Virus record (IMG/VR): IMGVR_UViG_3300046616_000354 | Coordinates: 1-35,519 of that record | Origin: a virus | DNA length: 35,519 bases | Strand: one strand, 5' to 3' | Shown: positions 2,363 through 22,899 of the stretch, piece by piece | How positions within the stretch are numbered: position 1 is the first letter of the stretch | Layout: each line of letters begins with the position of its first letter | Position numbers and translations under genes: made by a program | The notes under the pieces: model-generated | Told to the model about the DNA's origin: nothing | Databases searched by the model: none | Seen by the model: only the letters and a program-made list of their open reading frames with translations

Positions 2363-4068
2363 TCAAGAAGATTCGGACCGCCACGCACAGGCCGGCCGTC
2401 AGGCGCCGACGCTTCCGCCACGACGAATACGTCGCCGTCGACCTCTTCAGCGGCTTCGGCGGGCTCACCAAGGGCATCGAGGACGCCGGATTCACCACGA
2501 TCATGGCCGCGAACCACAACGAGTACAAAGTCCAGGTCCACGAGCGGAATCACCCCGACGCCGAGCACTGGATTGCCGACCTGGTCGACCCTGACGCCGC
2601 CGACTACCACTCCGCCCGCGACCTTCCCTCGGCTGACCTCTTGGCCGCAGGAGTGAGCTGCGTCAACCACTCACTCGCCAACACGATCAAGGCGTACGAG
2701 CAGGGCCAGTCCCTGTTCGAGCTGGAGGACCCCGACTACGAGGCGCGCGTCACCAGGTCCGAGCGGGACCGAGCGACCGCGAACTGCGTCCTGCAGTACG
2801 CCGCCAAGCACCACCCGCGACTCATCCTCGTCGAGTGCACCACCCAGCTCACCTCATGGGGGCCCGCGGTCCAGGGCAAGGCCAAGGTCGGGGACGGCAG
2901 CACCTACCGGTGGTGGCTCAACCAGTTCGATCTGCTCGGCTACCGGCACAAGGTCCTGTACCTCAACAGCCAGTTCTTCGGGGTCCCGCAGTCCCGGGAC
3001 CGCGGCTACTGGGTGTTCGTCGACAAGTCCCTGCCGATGCCCGACCTGGAGCACCGGCCCGTGTCGCACTGCGGGCGCTGCGACAAGGACGTCGAGGCGG
3101 TGTGGACGTGGAAGACCGGCATCACTCCGACCGGCACGGTGATGTACGGCAAGCAGTACGAGTACCGGTGCCCGTCCTGCCGCCGCCCCGTCGTCCCGCC
3201 GATGACGCCGTCGCTGGCCGCGCTCGACCTCACCGATCTCGGCAGGCGCATCGGCGACAAGCCGGTCAAGACGTTCAAGGACGGCTTCGTCGGGCCGCTC
3301 GCGCGGTCGTCGATGGCGCGAGCGGAACGGTGCCGCCGCCGCTTCGCCGACTTCCCGGCGATCCTCATGCCGGCGAAGGGCGTGCACGGCTCGGAGCGGC
3401 TCCTGCTGCAGCCGATGGCGACGCAGACCAGCCAGCAGGAGACCGCGATCCTGTCGACCGGGCCGGTCGTCCAGCCGCTGTGGGCCCAGGACGCCGCTGA
3501 CGGACTGGCCGCACCGGCGATGGCGCTCGCGGTGGACAACTTCCAGGGTGCCGCGCGCGGCGCCGGGGAGCCGCTGCCCACCCAGGTCGGGTCGGAGACC
3601 CTCGCCGTGCTGTCCTCCGGTGTCATCCCGTACCGGAAGAACACGCTGCCCACGCTGCACAGCGAGGCGATGCCCACCTTCACCTCGGAGCAGATCCCGG
3701 CGGTGCTGACGGCCGCCGGCTGGTACAAGCAGAACGGCCCCAGTGGGAACGAGACCGCGCCTCACCCGGTCACGGACCCGCTCGGCACTCTCACCTCACG
3801 TGACACGACCGCGCTGCTCATGGCCCAGTGGCAGGCGTCGCTCGCCGAACTGCCGCTTGAGGACTGCTTCTACCGGATGATGGCGGCGCACGAGATCGGC
3901 CGTGGCTGCGGCTTCGACGTCGACTTCAACGACTACCGCGGCTCCTTCACCGTCTGGGGCTCCGCCCGTGACCAGGTCGACGGGTTCGGCAACGCAGTCT
4001 CCCCGAAGGTCGGTACCTGGATCGGGGCCCGGCTGCGGGCCGTCCTCCACGGGACGGTGGCGGCATGA
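2359..4068 (+). CDS. DNA cytosine-C5 methyltransferase, atypical, with internal zinc ribbon
   Basis: 569 residues. Motif I, which binds S-adenosylmethionine, is DLFSGFGG (D28-G35). Motif VIII is QSRDR (Q211, R213, R215). The catalytic region departs from the standard enzyme: motif IV reads GVSC with Cys101 but Ser in place of the usual Pro before it, and motif VI is VECTT with Glu159 but Cys in place of the Asn of ENV. Two Cys pairs (C238/C241 and C271/C274) form a zinc ribbon in the target-recognition region. The catalytic Cys and Glu remain, so it is probably active on cytosine, perhaps protecting phage DNA from host restriction. No partner endonuclease is nearby. ATG overlaps the upstream stop. 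Confidence 0.85.
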   Translation: MIKKIRTATHRPAVRRRRFRHDEYVAVDLFSGFGGLTKGIEDAGFTTIMAANHNEYKVQVHERNHPDAEHWIADLVDPDAADYHSARDLPSADLLAAGVSCVNHSLANTIKAYEQGQSLFELEDPDYEARVTRSERDRATANCVLQYAAKHHPRLILVECTTQLTSWGPAVQGKAKVGDGSTYRWWLNQFDLLGYRHKVLYLNSQFFGVPQSRDRGYWVFVDKSLPMPDLEHRPVSHCGRCDKDVEAVWTWKTGITPTGTVMYGKQYEYRCPSCRRPVVPPMTPSLAALDLTDLGRRIGDKPVKTFKDGFVGPLARSSMARAERCRRRFADFPAILMPAKGVHGSERLLLQPMATQTSQQETAILSTGPVVQPLWAQDAADGLAAPAMALAVDNFQGAARGAGEPLPTQVGSETLAVLSSGVIPYRKNTLPTLHSEAMPTFTSEQIPAVLTAAGWYKQNGPSGNETAPHPVTDPLGTLTSRDTTALLMAQWQASLAELPLEDCFYRMMAAHEIGRGCGFDVDFNDYRGSFTVWGSARDQVDGFGNAVSPKVGTWIGARLRAVLHGTVAA

Positions 4069-11394: not shown

Positions 11395-11966
11395 ACGACC
11401 TCGCCCCGATCCGCCACACCGTCGACACTCTGAACAGCGACTCACTCGACGCCCTGTACACGAGCCTGGAGCGAGCCGAGGCCGCCATCGACCGAGCGCA
11501 GGACGCCGCTGCTCTCCACCGCCAGGGACTGCTCACCACAGCAGAGCTGTACGCCGTGATCGAGGCCACCCCCGCGCCCGGCCCGGCAGCGACCGAAGCG
11601 ACCGAGCCCGCCGACATCCAGCTCACCCGCAAGCTCGGCCACGGCCTCATCGTCACCGCTGCCCCGCCCCGAGCCCGCATGGCGCTCGCACTCCTCAACA
11701 TGCCCAGCTGCGGCGCAGGCGTGGTGAACGCCGGACAGATCAACATCGGCGACCAGGTCCTCTACCAGGTGACCGGGTACGACCCCGAGCACGCGTCGCT
11801 GCTGCTGGAGTTGGTGGAGGACTGGCGGCCCAAGCCCGGCGCCACGCTGACCGAGGCCGACGTCGAGGAATTGAAGGCGCGGTGGCTGGCCACGTACGGC
11901 AACAATCAGGGCGCGCACCCCGTGACAGAGCTGCGCCCGACCGGAGAGGAGCAGCCCGGTGTCTGA
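11391..11966 (+). CDS. Hypothetical protein
   Basis: 191 residues from GTG 11391, with AGGA at 11381-11384. The N-terminal third is helical (LDALYTSLERAEAAIDRAQD); the second half has beta strands around INIGDQVLYQVTGYD. No recognised motif. Overlaps the next gene by 8 bp. Confidence 0.65.
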   Translation: MNDLAPIRHTVDTLNSDSLDALYTSLERAEAAIDRAQDAAALHRQGLLTTAELYAVIEATPAPGPAATEATEPADIQLTRKLGHGLIVTAAPPRARMALALLNMPSCGAGVVNAGQINIGDQVLYQVTGYDPEHASLLLELVEDWRPKPGATLTEADVEELKARWLATYGNNQGAHPVTELRPTGEEQPGV

Positions 11967-12495
11967 CCTGCACGGCTGGATCACCCAACAGATCGACCAC
12001 ACCGAAGCCATCGCCCTCGAAGCGACACCCGGCCCCTGGCACGTCACCGAGTACAACTGGTCCACCGACTTCGACGCCGGCATCGGCACCTCGCCCGGAG
12101 AGGTCGACGTCGTCGGCCACGGCTACGAAGGCGGCGGGGTTGAGTACCTGCAGGATGCGATGCATATCGCCGCCCATGATCCGGCCGCCGTGCTGCGCCG
12201 CTGCACCGCAGACCGCAAGATCCTCGAAGTACACAAGCCCCACGGCGGACGCGGATACGGCGGCCACGCCTGCACCGGATGCGGCGAACTCAACGAGGAC
12301 TGGGCTGTCGAGCACGCCAACGATTGCCCGACCCTGCTCGCGCTTGCCGAGGGCTACGGCCTGACCTCGGAGGCCCTCACGACCATCGACCGGCCGATCC
12401 CAGAGCCGTACGTCGTTCGCTTGTCAGGCCCGCGCCCGGATACCCGTCGTGTCCCGCCGGCACTGCGCGGCCCCAACTGGAAGGCGCGCCCGTGA
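11959..12495 (+). CDS. DUF6221-like protein with Cys-pair insertion
   Basis: 178 residues from GTG 11959. It follows the DUF6221 pattern known from Streptomyces and its phages: an N-terminal helix, ATPGPWHV, then HIAAHDPAAVLRRCTADRKI, and a C-terminal LLALAEGYG. A CTGCGE segment in the middle adds a likely zinc site. The function of DUF6221 proteins is not known. A second member lies on the minus strand at 12878-13234 and a possible third at 18254-18526. Confidence 0.75.
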   Translation: MSDLHGWITQQIDHTEAIALEATPGPWHVTEYNWSTDFDAGIGTSPGEVDVVGHGYEGGGVEYLQDAMHIAAHDPAAVLRRCTADRKILEVHKPHGGRGYGGHACTGCGELNEDWAVEHANDCPTLLALAEGYGLTSEALTTIDRPIPEPYVVRLSGPRPDTRRVPPALRGPNWKARP

Positions 12496-12716
12496 TCGCC
12501 CACGACCAGGCCAGCGAGCCCGCCCGTGCGCTCCTCGCCGCGTTCGACGAAGTCCAGCTCGCCGAAATGCTCGCCGCGGCCAGTACCCGAGTCCGTCGTA
12601 TCCGGGAGCTGCACCGGGAGGACTACGGGTCCTGCGCCGAATGCACGCACGAGTCTGGCGTGGCGTTCCCGTGCCCCACCATCCGCGCGCTCAACGGCCC
12701 GCCCGTGGCATCCTGA
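12492..12716 (+). CDS. Small zinc-finger-like protein
   Basis: 74 residues from GTG 12492, overlapping the previous stop by 4 bp. An N-terminal helix (ALLAAFDEVQLAEMLAAAS) is followed by CAEC, His and PCPTIRAL, the same CxxC...PCPT arrangement as the C-terminus of the protein at 10521-10931. Last protein gene of this operon; a tRNA-like element begins 7 bases later. Confidence 0.7.
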   Translation: MIAHDQASEPARALLAAFDEVQLAEMLAAASTRVRRIRELHREDYGSCAECTHESGVAFPCPTIRALNGPPVAS

Positions 12717-12722
12717 ACGGGT

Positions 12723-12789
12723 TCCCTCGTAGCTCAACTTGGCAGAGCGCCCGGCGGGGAGGTTGCGCGTTCAAATCGCGTCGAGGGAA
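12723..12789 (+). tRNA. tRNA-like element lacking the anticodon loop
   Basis: The 67 bases fold as a tRNA in every part but one. The acceptor stem is 12723-12729 with 12782-12788 (7 bp, perfect). The D-arm is 12732-12735 with 12745-12748, and its loop has GG. The variable loop is AGGTT. The T-arm is 12765-12769 with 12777-12781, and its loop is TTCAAAT. Between the D-arm and variable loop only ten bases remain (12750-12759), able to form CCC/GGG with a 4-base loop, so the 7-base anticodon loop is missing. A tRNA of this kind would be 74 bases, exactly seven more. CCA is not encoded (CGC follows). It may be a decayed tRNA, a processed leader or mimic, or an integration-site remnant. Confidence 0.6.
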
Positions 12790-12810
12790 CGCCCGCTCCC
12801 ACGTAACGCG

Positions 12811-12841
12811 AAGGCCCCGACCATCTGCCGGTCGGGGCCTT
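12811..12841 (+). terminator. Bidirectional hairpin terminator
   Basis: A perfect 12-bp stem (12811-12822 with 12830-12841) and a 7-nt loop lies between the plus-strand operon plus tRNA-like element and the convergent minus-strand gene ending at 12878. It can serve both directions. Confidence 0.75.
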
Positions 12842-12877
12842 CGTCGTGTGCGGGGTGTCAGCCCCAGGTGGTGTCGC

Positions 12878-13234
12878 TCACGGCGCCCACTCCTCTGCCT
12901 TGTAGCCAGGCCGGTCAGCGTAGGCCAGGGCGAACATGCGTAGCGTCCGTTCCAGCGCAGACGCGAACCCGCTCGTGAACGTCTCGTGGTAGTCGTGGGC
13001 GCGTTCGGCGAGGCGTAGCAGGTCCCGCTTGGCGTCGACCTCCCGCAGTTCCTGAGGCGACCGCTCTTGGTACGTCACATTGGCGGGGTCTTCGGTGGCC
13101 CCGCAGTAGAGGCAATCGCCGTCGTCCTCGTCGACGGAGGGCTCCAAGCACCAGGGCTCATGCCAGGCAGGCACCGCGATCGGGGACGCGTCGGCGTCGA
13201 GCTGGGCACGCAGCCACTCCACCAGGTCATCCAT
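12878..13234 (-). CDS. DUF6221-like protein with Cys pair
   Basis: 118 residues from the ATG at 13234. It opens with MDDLVEWLRAQLDADAS, the DUF6221 start, has REVDAKRDLLRLAER in the middle and ends ALAYADRPGYKAEEWAP, close to the family C-terminus. A CLYCGA segment near residue 40 gives a Cys pair where other members have other insertions. It overlaps the upstream HTH gene by 8 bp, so both are probably on one message. Function unknown. Confidence 0.8.
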   Translation of the reverse strand: MDDLVEWLRAQLDADASPIAVPAWHEPWCLEPSVDEDDGDCLYCGATEDPANVTYQERSPQELREVDAKRDLLRLAERAHDYHETFTSGFASALERTLRMFALAYADRPGYKAEEWAP

Positions 13235-13538
13235 CGTCAGCTTCCTTCCTCGGCCGATTCGTACCCGAGCCTGAGTAGCCCGCCTCGATGTCCTGCACCG
13301 TGCGAAGCGACACACCGAGCATCGTCGCGATCTTCCGGTACGACACCGGTTTCGGCTGCTTCGCCCGCTGCTCCAGCACGAACCGGCGGCGGTCCTCCCG
13401 CCACTTCTTCGCCCGGGCGGCCTGATCGGCGAGCACCTCGCTGATTGCTCGCGCGCGCTCCTCCGGGTCGGGGATCGCCTCCACCTCGTCCATGGCGTTG
13501 ATCACCCGCTGAGCCTCCTCGGTCACACCCGGCCTCAT
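13227..13538 (-). CDS. Helix-turn-helix DNA-binding protein
   Basis: 103 residues from ATG 13538. Residues 67-88 form a clear HTH (SYRKIATMLGVSLRTVQDIE) of the sigma-region-4 or Hin type, preceded by a long charged helix. Upstream on the minus strand, TACACT about 30 bases before the start could be a -10 box, but the -35 is poor. The frame stays open as far as 14297; I chose this start because upstream the sequence loses gene-like composition and overlaps the divergent genes. Likely regulates its own unit or the divergent operon at 13692. Confidence 0.7.
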   Translation of the reverse strand: MRPGVTEEAQRVINAMDEVEAIPDPEERARAISEVLADQAARAKKWREDRRRFVLEQRAKQPKPVSYRKIATMLGVSLRTVQDIEAGYSGSGTNRPRKEADDG

Positions 13539-22311: not shown

Positions 22312-22338
22312 TAACATCACACCATGGTTACCGGTAAC
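22312..22338 (+). promoter_or_regulatory. Candidate late promoter and palindrome over the TerS start
   Basis: TAACAT at 22312-22317 could be a -10 box, which would start the message at about the ATG (22324), so it would be leaderless; no Shine-Dalgarno is visible. A perfect 12-bp palindrome GTTACCGGTAAC (22327-22338) lies right after the ATG. A -35 is not clear. Confidence 0.45.
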
Positions 22339-22899
22339 AAGCCACCCGTACCGGCCGAACCCCCACACGAGGGCAGCGGCCAGACCGCCGAGCCCGCACC
22401 CCACGCAACCCGCGACGCCCGCGGCAAGTTCGTCCGCAGCATCGACACCGTGCGCCGCGACGCCGCCGCCGCCGAATACCTCGCCGAACACCCCGGCACC
22501 AGCTACCGCGAACTCGCAGAGCGATTCGGCTACTACGACAAAGGCACAGCATGGCGGGGCATCCAGGCAGCGAAAGCCGACGTTGCCCGGCCCGCCGTCA
22601 CCAAGCTGGTCCAGGCCGAGTCGGACGAACTCGACTCTCTGTACGTGATGGCGCTGGAGATCATCGAGCGGAACCACGTCGTGGTGTCCCACGGCAAGGT
22701 CGTCACCATGCGCGACCCGGACACTGGTGAGGAGCGGCCGCTCCAGGACGACGGCCCTAGGCTCCAGGCCATTCAGATGGCGCTCCGCATCCGCGACCAG
22801 TACCAGAACCTCCACGGCCTGAAGCAGCCTGCGCAGGTCGCAGTGTCCGGGGCCGTCCGGTACGAGGTCGTCGGCGTCGACGACGCGGACCTCACGTGA
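22324..22899 (+). CDS. Terminase small subunit-like protein
   Basis: 191 residues from ATG 22324. After a Pro-rich N-terminus, residues about 45-75 form an HTH-like unit (SYRELAERFGYYDKGTAWRG) of the kind that recognises the packaging site. The C-terminal half is helical. The position directly before the large subunit, overlapping it by 4 bp, makes TerS the best call. The sequence alone gives only moderate support. Confidence 0.75.
   Translation: MVTGNKPPVPAEPPHEGSGQTAEPAPHATRDARGKFVRSIDTVRRDAAAAEYLAEHPGTSYRELAERFGYYDKGTAWRGIQAAKADVARPAVTKLVQAESDELDSLYVMALEIIERNHVVVSHGKVVTMRDPDTGEERPLQDDGPRLQAIQMALRIRDQYQNLHGLKQPAQVAVSGAVRYEVVGVDDADLT

Follow-up and report, generated by a model that had tools for sequence, protein, structure and literature searches.

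What would a phage gain from a tRNA that cannot decode, and why would such an element be carried at the end of an operon? The question is raised by a tRNA-like element of about 67-68 nt on the plus strand at positions 12,723-12,789 of the window, by which we mean the whole stretch of 35,519 nucleotides analyzed here, a virus record from IMG/VR. The reason why phages carry tRNAs at all is still debated. A non-decoding tRNA that is held by covariation separates decoding from the other uses of the tRNA fold, and makes these other uses testable.

A tRNA fold with a shortened anticodon arm

Read from the sequence, the acceptor stem of the element (TCCCTCG/CGAGGGA) is formed by positions 12,723-12,729 and 12,782-12,788 and is fully paired (7/7), with two pairs compensated in relatives and the 3′ strand placed also by the class alignment described below. 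U8-A9 follow the first acceptor strand and G26 follows the D arm at 12,732-12,748 (GCTC-AACTTGGCA-GAGC), which has all four stem pairs, GG in its loop and one loop base that varies among the five class members. A variable loop, AGGTT (12,760-12,764, as in the class alignment), leads to the T arm at 12,765-12,781 (GCGCG-TTCAAAT-CGCGT, 5/5 pairs), and the element ends, after 67 nt, with the discriminator base A73 at 12,789; CCA is not encoded, the next bases being CGC. When the bases are named by standard tRNA numbering, U8/A14, A15/U48, G18-G19 with U55-C56, and G26/A44 can all be found by eye. At the place of the anticodon arm there is a mini-hairpin, CCC-GGCG-GGG (12,750-12,759), of 3 bp and 4 nt, as against the 5-bp stem and 7-nt loop of a decoding tRNA. 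The preliminary description, made from the letters alone, had recognized the tRNA form of the acceptor stem, D arm, variable loop and T arm, all of which we read as well. It had also described the anticodon loop as missing, and indeed the loop is reduced to GGCG, but the change is not confined to the loop, as the whole arm is cut.

A covariance model search, which had been proposed as a check, agrees with this reading. In a cmscan run on an 85-base stretch alone, the element matched the Rfam tRNA model RF00005 with 44.6 bits (E = 4e-9; cut-off 29 bits) over all 71 model positions, acceptor, D and T arms included, with four bases standing against 11 model positions in the anticodon region. The covariance model of the class, R1, scored it at 102.6 bits. 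ARAGORN, run on the whole window, reported neither a tRNA gene nor a tmRNA and missed the element, which was also missed by a default Rfam scan of the whole window and by a lax scan of 301 bases. Thermodynamic stability was dropped as evidence (z about -1): the folding energy of the element is by itself unremarkable (z = -1.07), and the case for it rests on the tRNA model score and on conservation.

Conservation and covariation among close relatives

With the small protein gene just upstream of the element as query we found six loci. L003 has the same element in the same place, with a single change in the variable loop, and L004 is syntenic on both sides of the site without carrying the element, which shows the element to be a separable module and, being absent from so close a relative, a dispensable one. 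L009 and L031/L036 came from pattern scans of IMG/VR, and L040, which is the L009 locus as found in the isolate Streptomyces sp. LUP30, came from scanning bacterial genomes. The window, L003, L009, L031 and L036 are the five aligned members of what we refer to as the window class. The shortened form, which the preliminary description had advised looking for in related phages, is thus present in four other records, one of them an isolate, and since these records are independent a sequencing error is ruled out as its origin. No intact tRNA was seen at the site in the relatives, as L003 has the same element and L004 has neither element nor tRNA. By BLAST, the window is 94-96% identical to L031/L036 over 12,724-12,791, with no flanking match there, and 91% identical to L040 over 12,706-12,791. 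The match to L031/L036 stops at the ends of the element, so that, to judge from these alignments, the element as a whole has been preserved in surroundings that otherwise differ. A search for direct homologues in named phages found none near the element, the one match of one search being a Mycobacterium phage tRNA-Pro, and a search of plasmids gave no matches.

In the alignment of the five members all 95 of 95 pair cells are standard. Double changes are seen at three pairs (alignment columns 1-66 and 5-62 in the acceptor stem and 28-37 in the mini-hairpin), the last being a change from CG to UA in L031/L036. A control with slid partners gave no double changes; 39 of 500 shuffles reached the count of double-changed pairs, and none of the 500 reached the observed double-change cells and covariation score. 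Given five related sequences, the covariation provides support for the fold and not proof of it.

Genomic setting

The record is a 35.5-kb virus record with HK97-type head genes (portal, ClpP-like protease and capsid), and it also encodes the large terminase and replication and recombination genes. Its host is likely Streptomyces, as among named sequences the window comes nearest to a Streptomyces phage, over a stretch of 500 bases. A side observation in the same record concerns 22,324-22,899 (+), just 5′ of the large terminase gene, which matches phrog_645, labelled RNase E (E = 1.4e-9), and occupies the spot where a small terminase might be expected.

The last gene of the forward operon encodes a small Cys-containing protein (12,491-12,716, +, start codon inferred; the mechanical ORF is 12,279-12,716), and part of residues 60-145 of this ORF is conserved in the six loci with up to 82% identity. 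Its stop codon is at 12,714-12,716, the element begins six bases downstream, and the next predicted gene (12,878-13,315) is on the minus strand, all of which bears out the earlier placement of the element at the end of an operon. A terminator-like hairpin of about 12 bp by sequence fold, with no T run, lies 3′ of the element at 12,808-12,844 (+), where a consensus terminator scan reported no terminator. Two further features of the neighborhood deserve mention. The genes at 11,959-12,495 (+) and 12,878-13,315 (-), which flank the element, both match phrog_6326 and are possibly convergent paralogues. The motif TGGCATCCTG is found at 12,706-12,715 (+), overlapping the upstream stop codon and ending seven bases before the element; it occupies the same place in L003 (at 5257) and in L009, which has copies at 1466, 1576 and 1778, and around the LUP30 element there are three copies and none in the following 20 kb.

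This location raises the possibility that the element serves as tRNA punctuation, where RNase P cuts at the element to define where the early operon message ends, in the way that mascRNA defines the end of MALAT1, and the freed RNA is a by-product. A bare acceptor/T hairpin can suffice for bacterial RNase P, so that punctuation would leave the preserved D arm and the mini-hairpin unexplained. The position six bases past the stop codon, with the same order in L003, and the preservation of the elbow and acceptor that RNase P and Z recognize (PMC11693755) both fit this explanation, but the position is not constant: in L031/L036 an earlier terminator-like hairpin precedes the element and the next gene follows it, and in L029, L021 and L034, which are outside the window class, it lies by eye shortly upstream of an apparent gene start. 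We regard punctuation as the main role as rather unlikely.

Distribution in phages and hosts

In bacterial genomes the element is close to absent. The class pattern was found in a single stretch among 84,980 species (one genome per species), which is the LUP30 locus. A looser truncated-tRNA pattern again led to LUP30, as the one match among 295 Streptomyces genomes, and a pattern for the G-R-C-R loop introduced below led there once more, in one of 198 actinobacterial genomes.

tRNA genes are the usual attB sites of integrating phages, and a tRNA-like sequence in a phage could be an attP that matches a host tRNA gene, one of the uses considered when the element was first noticed. The cores used by mycobacteriophage tyrosine integrases typically have 30-45 bp in common with the 3′ half of the host tRNA, although about 10 bp also occurs (PMC10865867). 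Three Streptomyces genomes gave short and weak matches only, LUP30's own copy aside, so that the suggested search for the matching host tRNA as an attB came out negative, and a tyrosine integrase was found in none of eight records. Neither the core identity with a host tRNA nor the integrase that would mark such an attP was therefore seen. Serine recombinases are encoded in four of the eight records, including the element-free L004, and the recombinase is about 20 kb away in L003 and about 1.7 kb away in L031. An attachment site is thus extremely improbable.

Full-length kin of the element are found in phages. Among the IMG/VR records that share its D arm and T loop, five have the short form (L003, L009, L029, L031 and L036) as against two that are full-length, a tRNA-Pro(GGG) in L082 and a tRNA-Lys in L083. 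L082 is the top full-length match to the class model, with 65.5 bits compared to 101-103 for the class members, and for this reason the element likely descends from a phage tRNA-Pro. The sharing of a 3′ tail, ACG, which is seen in L082 and L083, was considered as evidence of processing and dropped, as the end definition used for it was unreliable.

The parentage bears on whether the element could be an amino-acid acceptor, charged by an anticodon-independent synthetase for non-ribosomal transfer to a peptide, lipid or protein. The acceptor stem and A73 are kept, and the element of L063 has G3-U70 (pairing by eye), which is the alanine signal, together with an encoded CCA. The window class has C3-G70 instead, and as its acceptor pairs 1-72 and 5-68 (tRNA numbering) vary, no fixed identity element is seen. 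The synthetases for tRNA-Pro and tRNA-Lys, the nearest full-length kin, use the anticodon, and no transferase was recognized among the scanned proteins of the window. Such a role is highly unlikely.

Related elements in unrelated phages

Scans of IMG/VR that were blind to the loop reported further tRNA-like sequences with a short anticodon arm in unrelated phages. Many raw matches were due to chance or lay within tRNA arrays, and those with fewer than four T-stem pairs were set aside. With the Streptomyces class taken as one lineage, a hairpin closed by a 4-nt loop was seen in 11 lineages that have four or more T-stem pairs, and in six of them (the window class, L020, L025, L029, L030 and L057) the loop is G-R-C-R, a motif picked post hoc, so that the unadjusted binomial value of 6e-9 is too favorable. 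The other five are L010, L017, L022, L063 and L080/L081. A scan for GRCR that did not require a stem gave 19 records: nine already known, seven new ones with D and T arms (L087, L088 and L091-L095) and three lacking the D arm. Later GRCR scans gave six, of which three were good (L096, L097 and L101) and three were set aside (L098-L100). Even though it was not required, the stem is fully paired in nine of the ten new elements, L087 having two of three pairs.

Altogether, intact D and T arms with a 3-4 bp hairpin and a GRCR tetraloop were found in the window and 19 other loci, counts that depend on the D-arm patterns GGCAGAGC and GGTAGAGC and come from partial genomes. The loops of these 20 aligned elements are GACG in nine, GGCA in six and GGCG in five (all of the window class), with no GACA. 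The stem partners covary; with identical stems collapsed, 23/24 and 28/28 mini-hairpin pairs are formed, with a shuffle share of 0.0002 each. Acceptor pairing is 7/7 in the five class members and five to seven in the others, taking the better of two registers, with the exception of L020 (three pairs by the script, 6 bp by eye). We also asked how often the element is the sole tRNA-like gene of its record. Of 17 hand-picked, isolated-looking records that bear an element, 15 have no other Rfam tRNA match: ten have a single match of the element's size and five, those of the window class, have none, their element being lost at the fast filter, while the remaining two (L088 and L025) have others. 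The 18th record checked, L004, has neither element nor tRNA match. Because standard tRNA finders such as ARAGORN and Rfam with its default filters do not pick up the window's element, members of the class may be widespread and have gone uncounted.

Some anticodon-short elements lie within tRNA arrays (L016, L017, L022, L030, L035 and L059) and may simply have decayed. In other records (L072:11572-11632, L074:2318-2379, L077 and L079) the scans reported tRNA-likes with just 8-11 bases between the D and T arms and no hairpin. Lactobacillus brevis phages have tRNA-likes without any anticodon hairpin beside other odd tRNA-likes (L026:10260-10430 (-), L053:3000-3058 and L055:1437-1495); in phage Lb they are flanked by a gene for a transcriptional regulator on one side and by the terminase genes on the other, and two in phage 3-SAC12 are annotated as tRNA-OTHER. 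GOLLD and other giant RNA families gave no match over threshold in these three loci. The L. brevis elements, some of them hairpin-free, may embody a similar idea, their kinship with the window element being a candidate one.

Is the window's element, too, what is left of a phage tRNA-Pro gene, decaying or selfish, spread by horizontal exchange and without function? Its nearest full-length relative is indeed a phage tRNA-Pro(GGG) with an identical D arm, and its presence differs between close relatives. A remnant would not be expected to show compensatory changes and full pairing, conservation confined to the element, the same mini-hairpin loop in unrelated phages and near-absence from the 84,980 host species, and we consider this explanation improbable. 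The same compensatory changes, element-bounded conservation and recurrent loop speak for the early view that general decay does not account for the element, and, together with the covarying stem, for the view that it is kept for a use other than decoding.

A possible link to Ro60

YrlA, too, presents a tRNA without an anticodon arm, and the element could be an unpermuted cousin of this Y RNA that works with a Ro protein. The link was hinted at by Microbacterium phage FuzzBuster (MN062720.1), which has an unannotated permuted tRNA-like RNA at about 2960-3120, directly upstream of a gene for a Ro-like RNA binding protein. In this RNA the T arm comes first, followed by an acceptor that GCAA closes and then by the D arm, which presumably makes it a YrlA-like RNA. 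Similar permuted forms are found at L063:2486, adjoining the L063 element, and in L110, in both cases near TROVE genes, and the element of L088 is near a TROVE gene as well.

TROVE was found in four of 32 IMG/VR records tested, the window included, but also over the cut-off in four of 34 control records, at least seven of which also have array-type truncated candidates. There being no enrichment, Ro does not explain the class, and the association was dropped. No TROVE domain (PF05731) was found in the window or in the L003, L009, L031 and L036 records, which may be incomplete. The element is unpermuted and has no Ro-binding stem. YrlA membership was rejected, as the D arm precedes the T arm and a pattern for the permuted form finds nothing in the window. 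A role of the Ro60/Y RNA type is very improbable.

A putative tRNA mimic

The tRNA fold, seen by model and by sequence, the short anticodon arm, the conservation and covariation across unlinked phage contexts and the near-empty host chromosomes together indicate that the element is probably a tRNA mimic that is kept and does not decode. Its transcript would form the last part of the early operon RNA, from which host RNase P and 3′-end nucleases would excise it before CCA is added, processing that we infer from the intact acceptor/T/D surface. It is this surface that RNase P, RNase Z and the CCA enzyme use, as do other proteins that bind the elbow (PMC11693755 and PMC4810234). Being unable to decode and having no anticodon that could be cleaved, the mimic would presumably act by binding to host proteins that hold a tRNA by its elbow or acceptor end, and could be an uncleavable decoy or an inhibitor, most likely against a tRNA-targeting defense or for a takeover of tRNA metabolism.

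Phage tRNAs have been proposed to evade tRNA-targeting defenses by mutations in the anticodon loop (PMC10264068), and for the tRNA-like domain of YrlA, which stayed uncut when tested, competitive inhibition of an anticodon nuclease has been suggested (PMC7790460). The decoy step, which would fit phage biology in the light of these proposals, is put forward tentatively. The statement as a whole, that this is a phage-borne non-coding RNA gene for a minimized tRNA mimic that is processed like a tRNA and acts as a decoy, has a probability that we would place a little short of even. Counting against it are the varying acceptor pairs 1-72 and 5-68, the absence of the element from L004, and those anticodon-short elements in tRNA arrays that may have decayed. 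More speculative is the extension to an undescribed family of phage RNAs: unpermuted tRNAs with a 3-4 bp G-R-C-R hairpin for an anticodon arm, often the sole tRNA-like gene of the record, might be uncleavable, non-decoding mimics that counter tRNA-targeting defenses or take over the enzymes that handle tRNAs, and the tetraloop might give them a second site for recognition. In open-licence papers we found no description of such an element, and one elsewhere is possible; the phrases 'no anticodon' and 'missing anticodon' in this literature concern tRNA repertoires and not structure.

Comparison with known systems

Of the known RNAs, the one nearest to the element is the tRNA-like domain of the bacterial Y RNA YrlA, said to have been described by Chen and coworkers in 2014. 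Like the window element it keeps the tRNA elbow and an acceptor-like stem, lacks the anticodon arm and is carried by a phage (FuzzBuster), and the inhibitor role suggested for it (PMC7790460) resembles the one considered here. It differs in that the YrlA-like RNAs of this analysis have a circularly permuted order and a loop-closed acceptor and lie beside a Ro60 gene, whereas the window element is unpermuted, is about 67-68 nt long and has a GRCR mini-hairpin, with no Ro gene found in its possibly incomplete record. The human mascRNA and menRNA (PMC11693755) are tRNA-shaped RNAs that do not decode, have a changed anticodon arm and lie at the 3′ end of longer transcripts, a layout that the window element would share. 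Mimics of the mascRNA type are cut by RNase P and RNase Z and receive CCA but no amino acid. In mascRNA and menRNA it is the D arm that is smaller, and the stem on the anticodon side is longer and closed by a compact loop, while the window element has a full D arm and a shortened anticodon arm.

Closest in sequence is the phage tRNA-Pro(GGG) of L082, which has an identical D arm and T loop, differs at one T-stem base and shares the ACG after the acceptor. It has, in contrast, a 5-bp anticodon stem with a 7-nt loop, is located inside an array of 33 ARAGORN tRNA genes, and should decode. The tRNA-like domain of tmRNA combines an acceptor with a T arm in the absence of an anticodon loop, as does the window element; unlike in the latter, its D arm is reduced, and tmRNA includes a reading frame for the tag.
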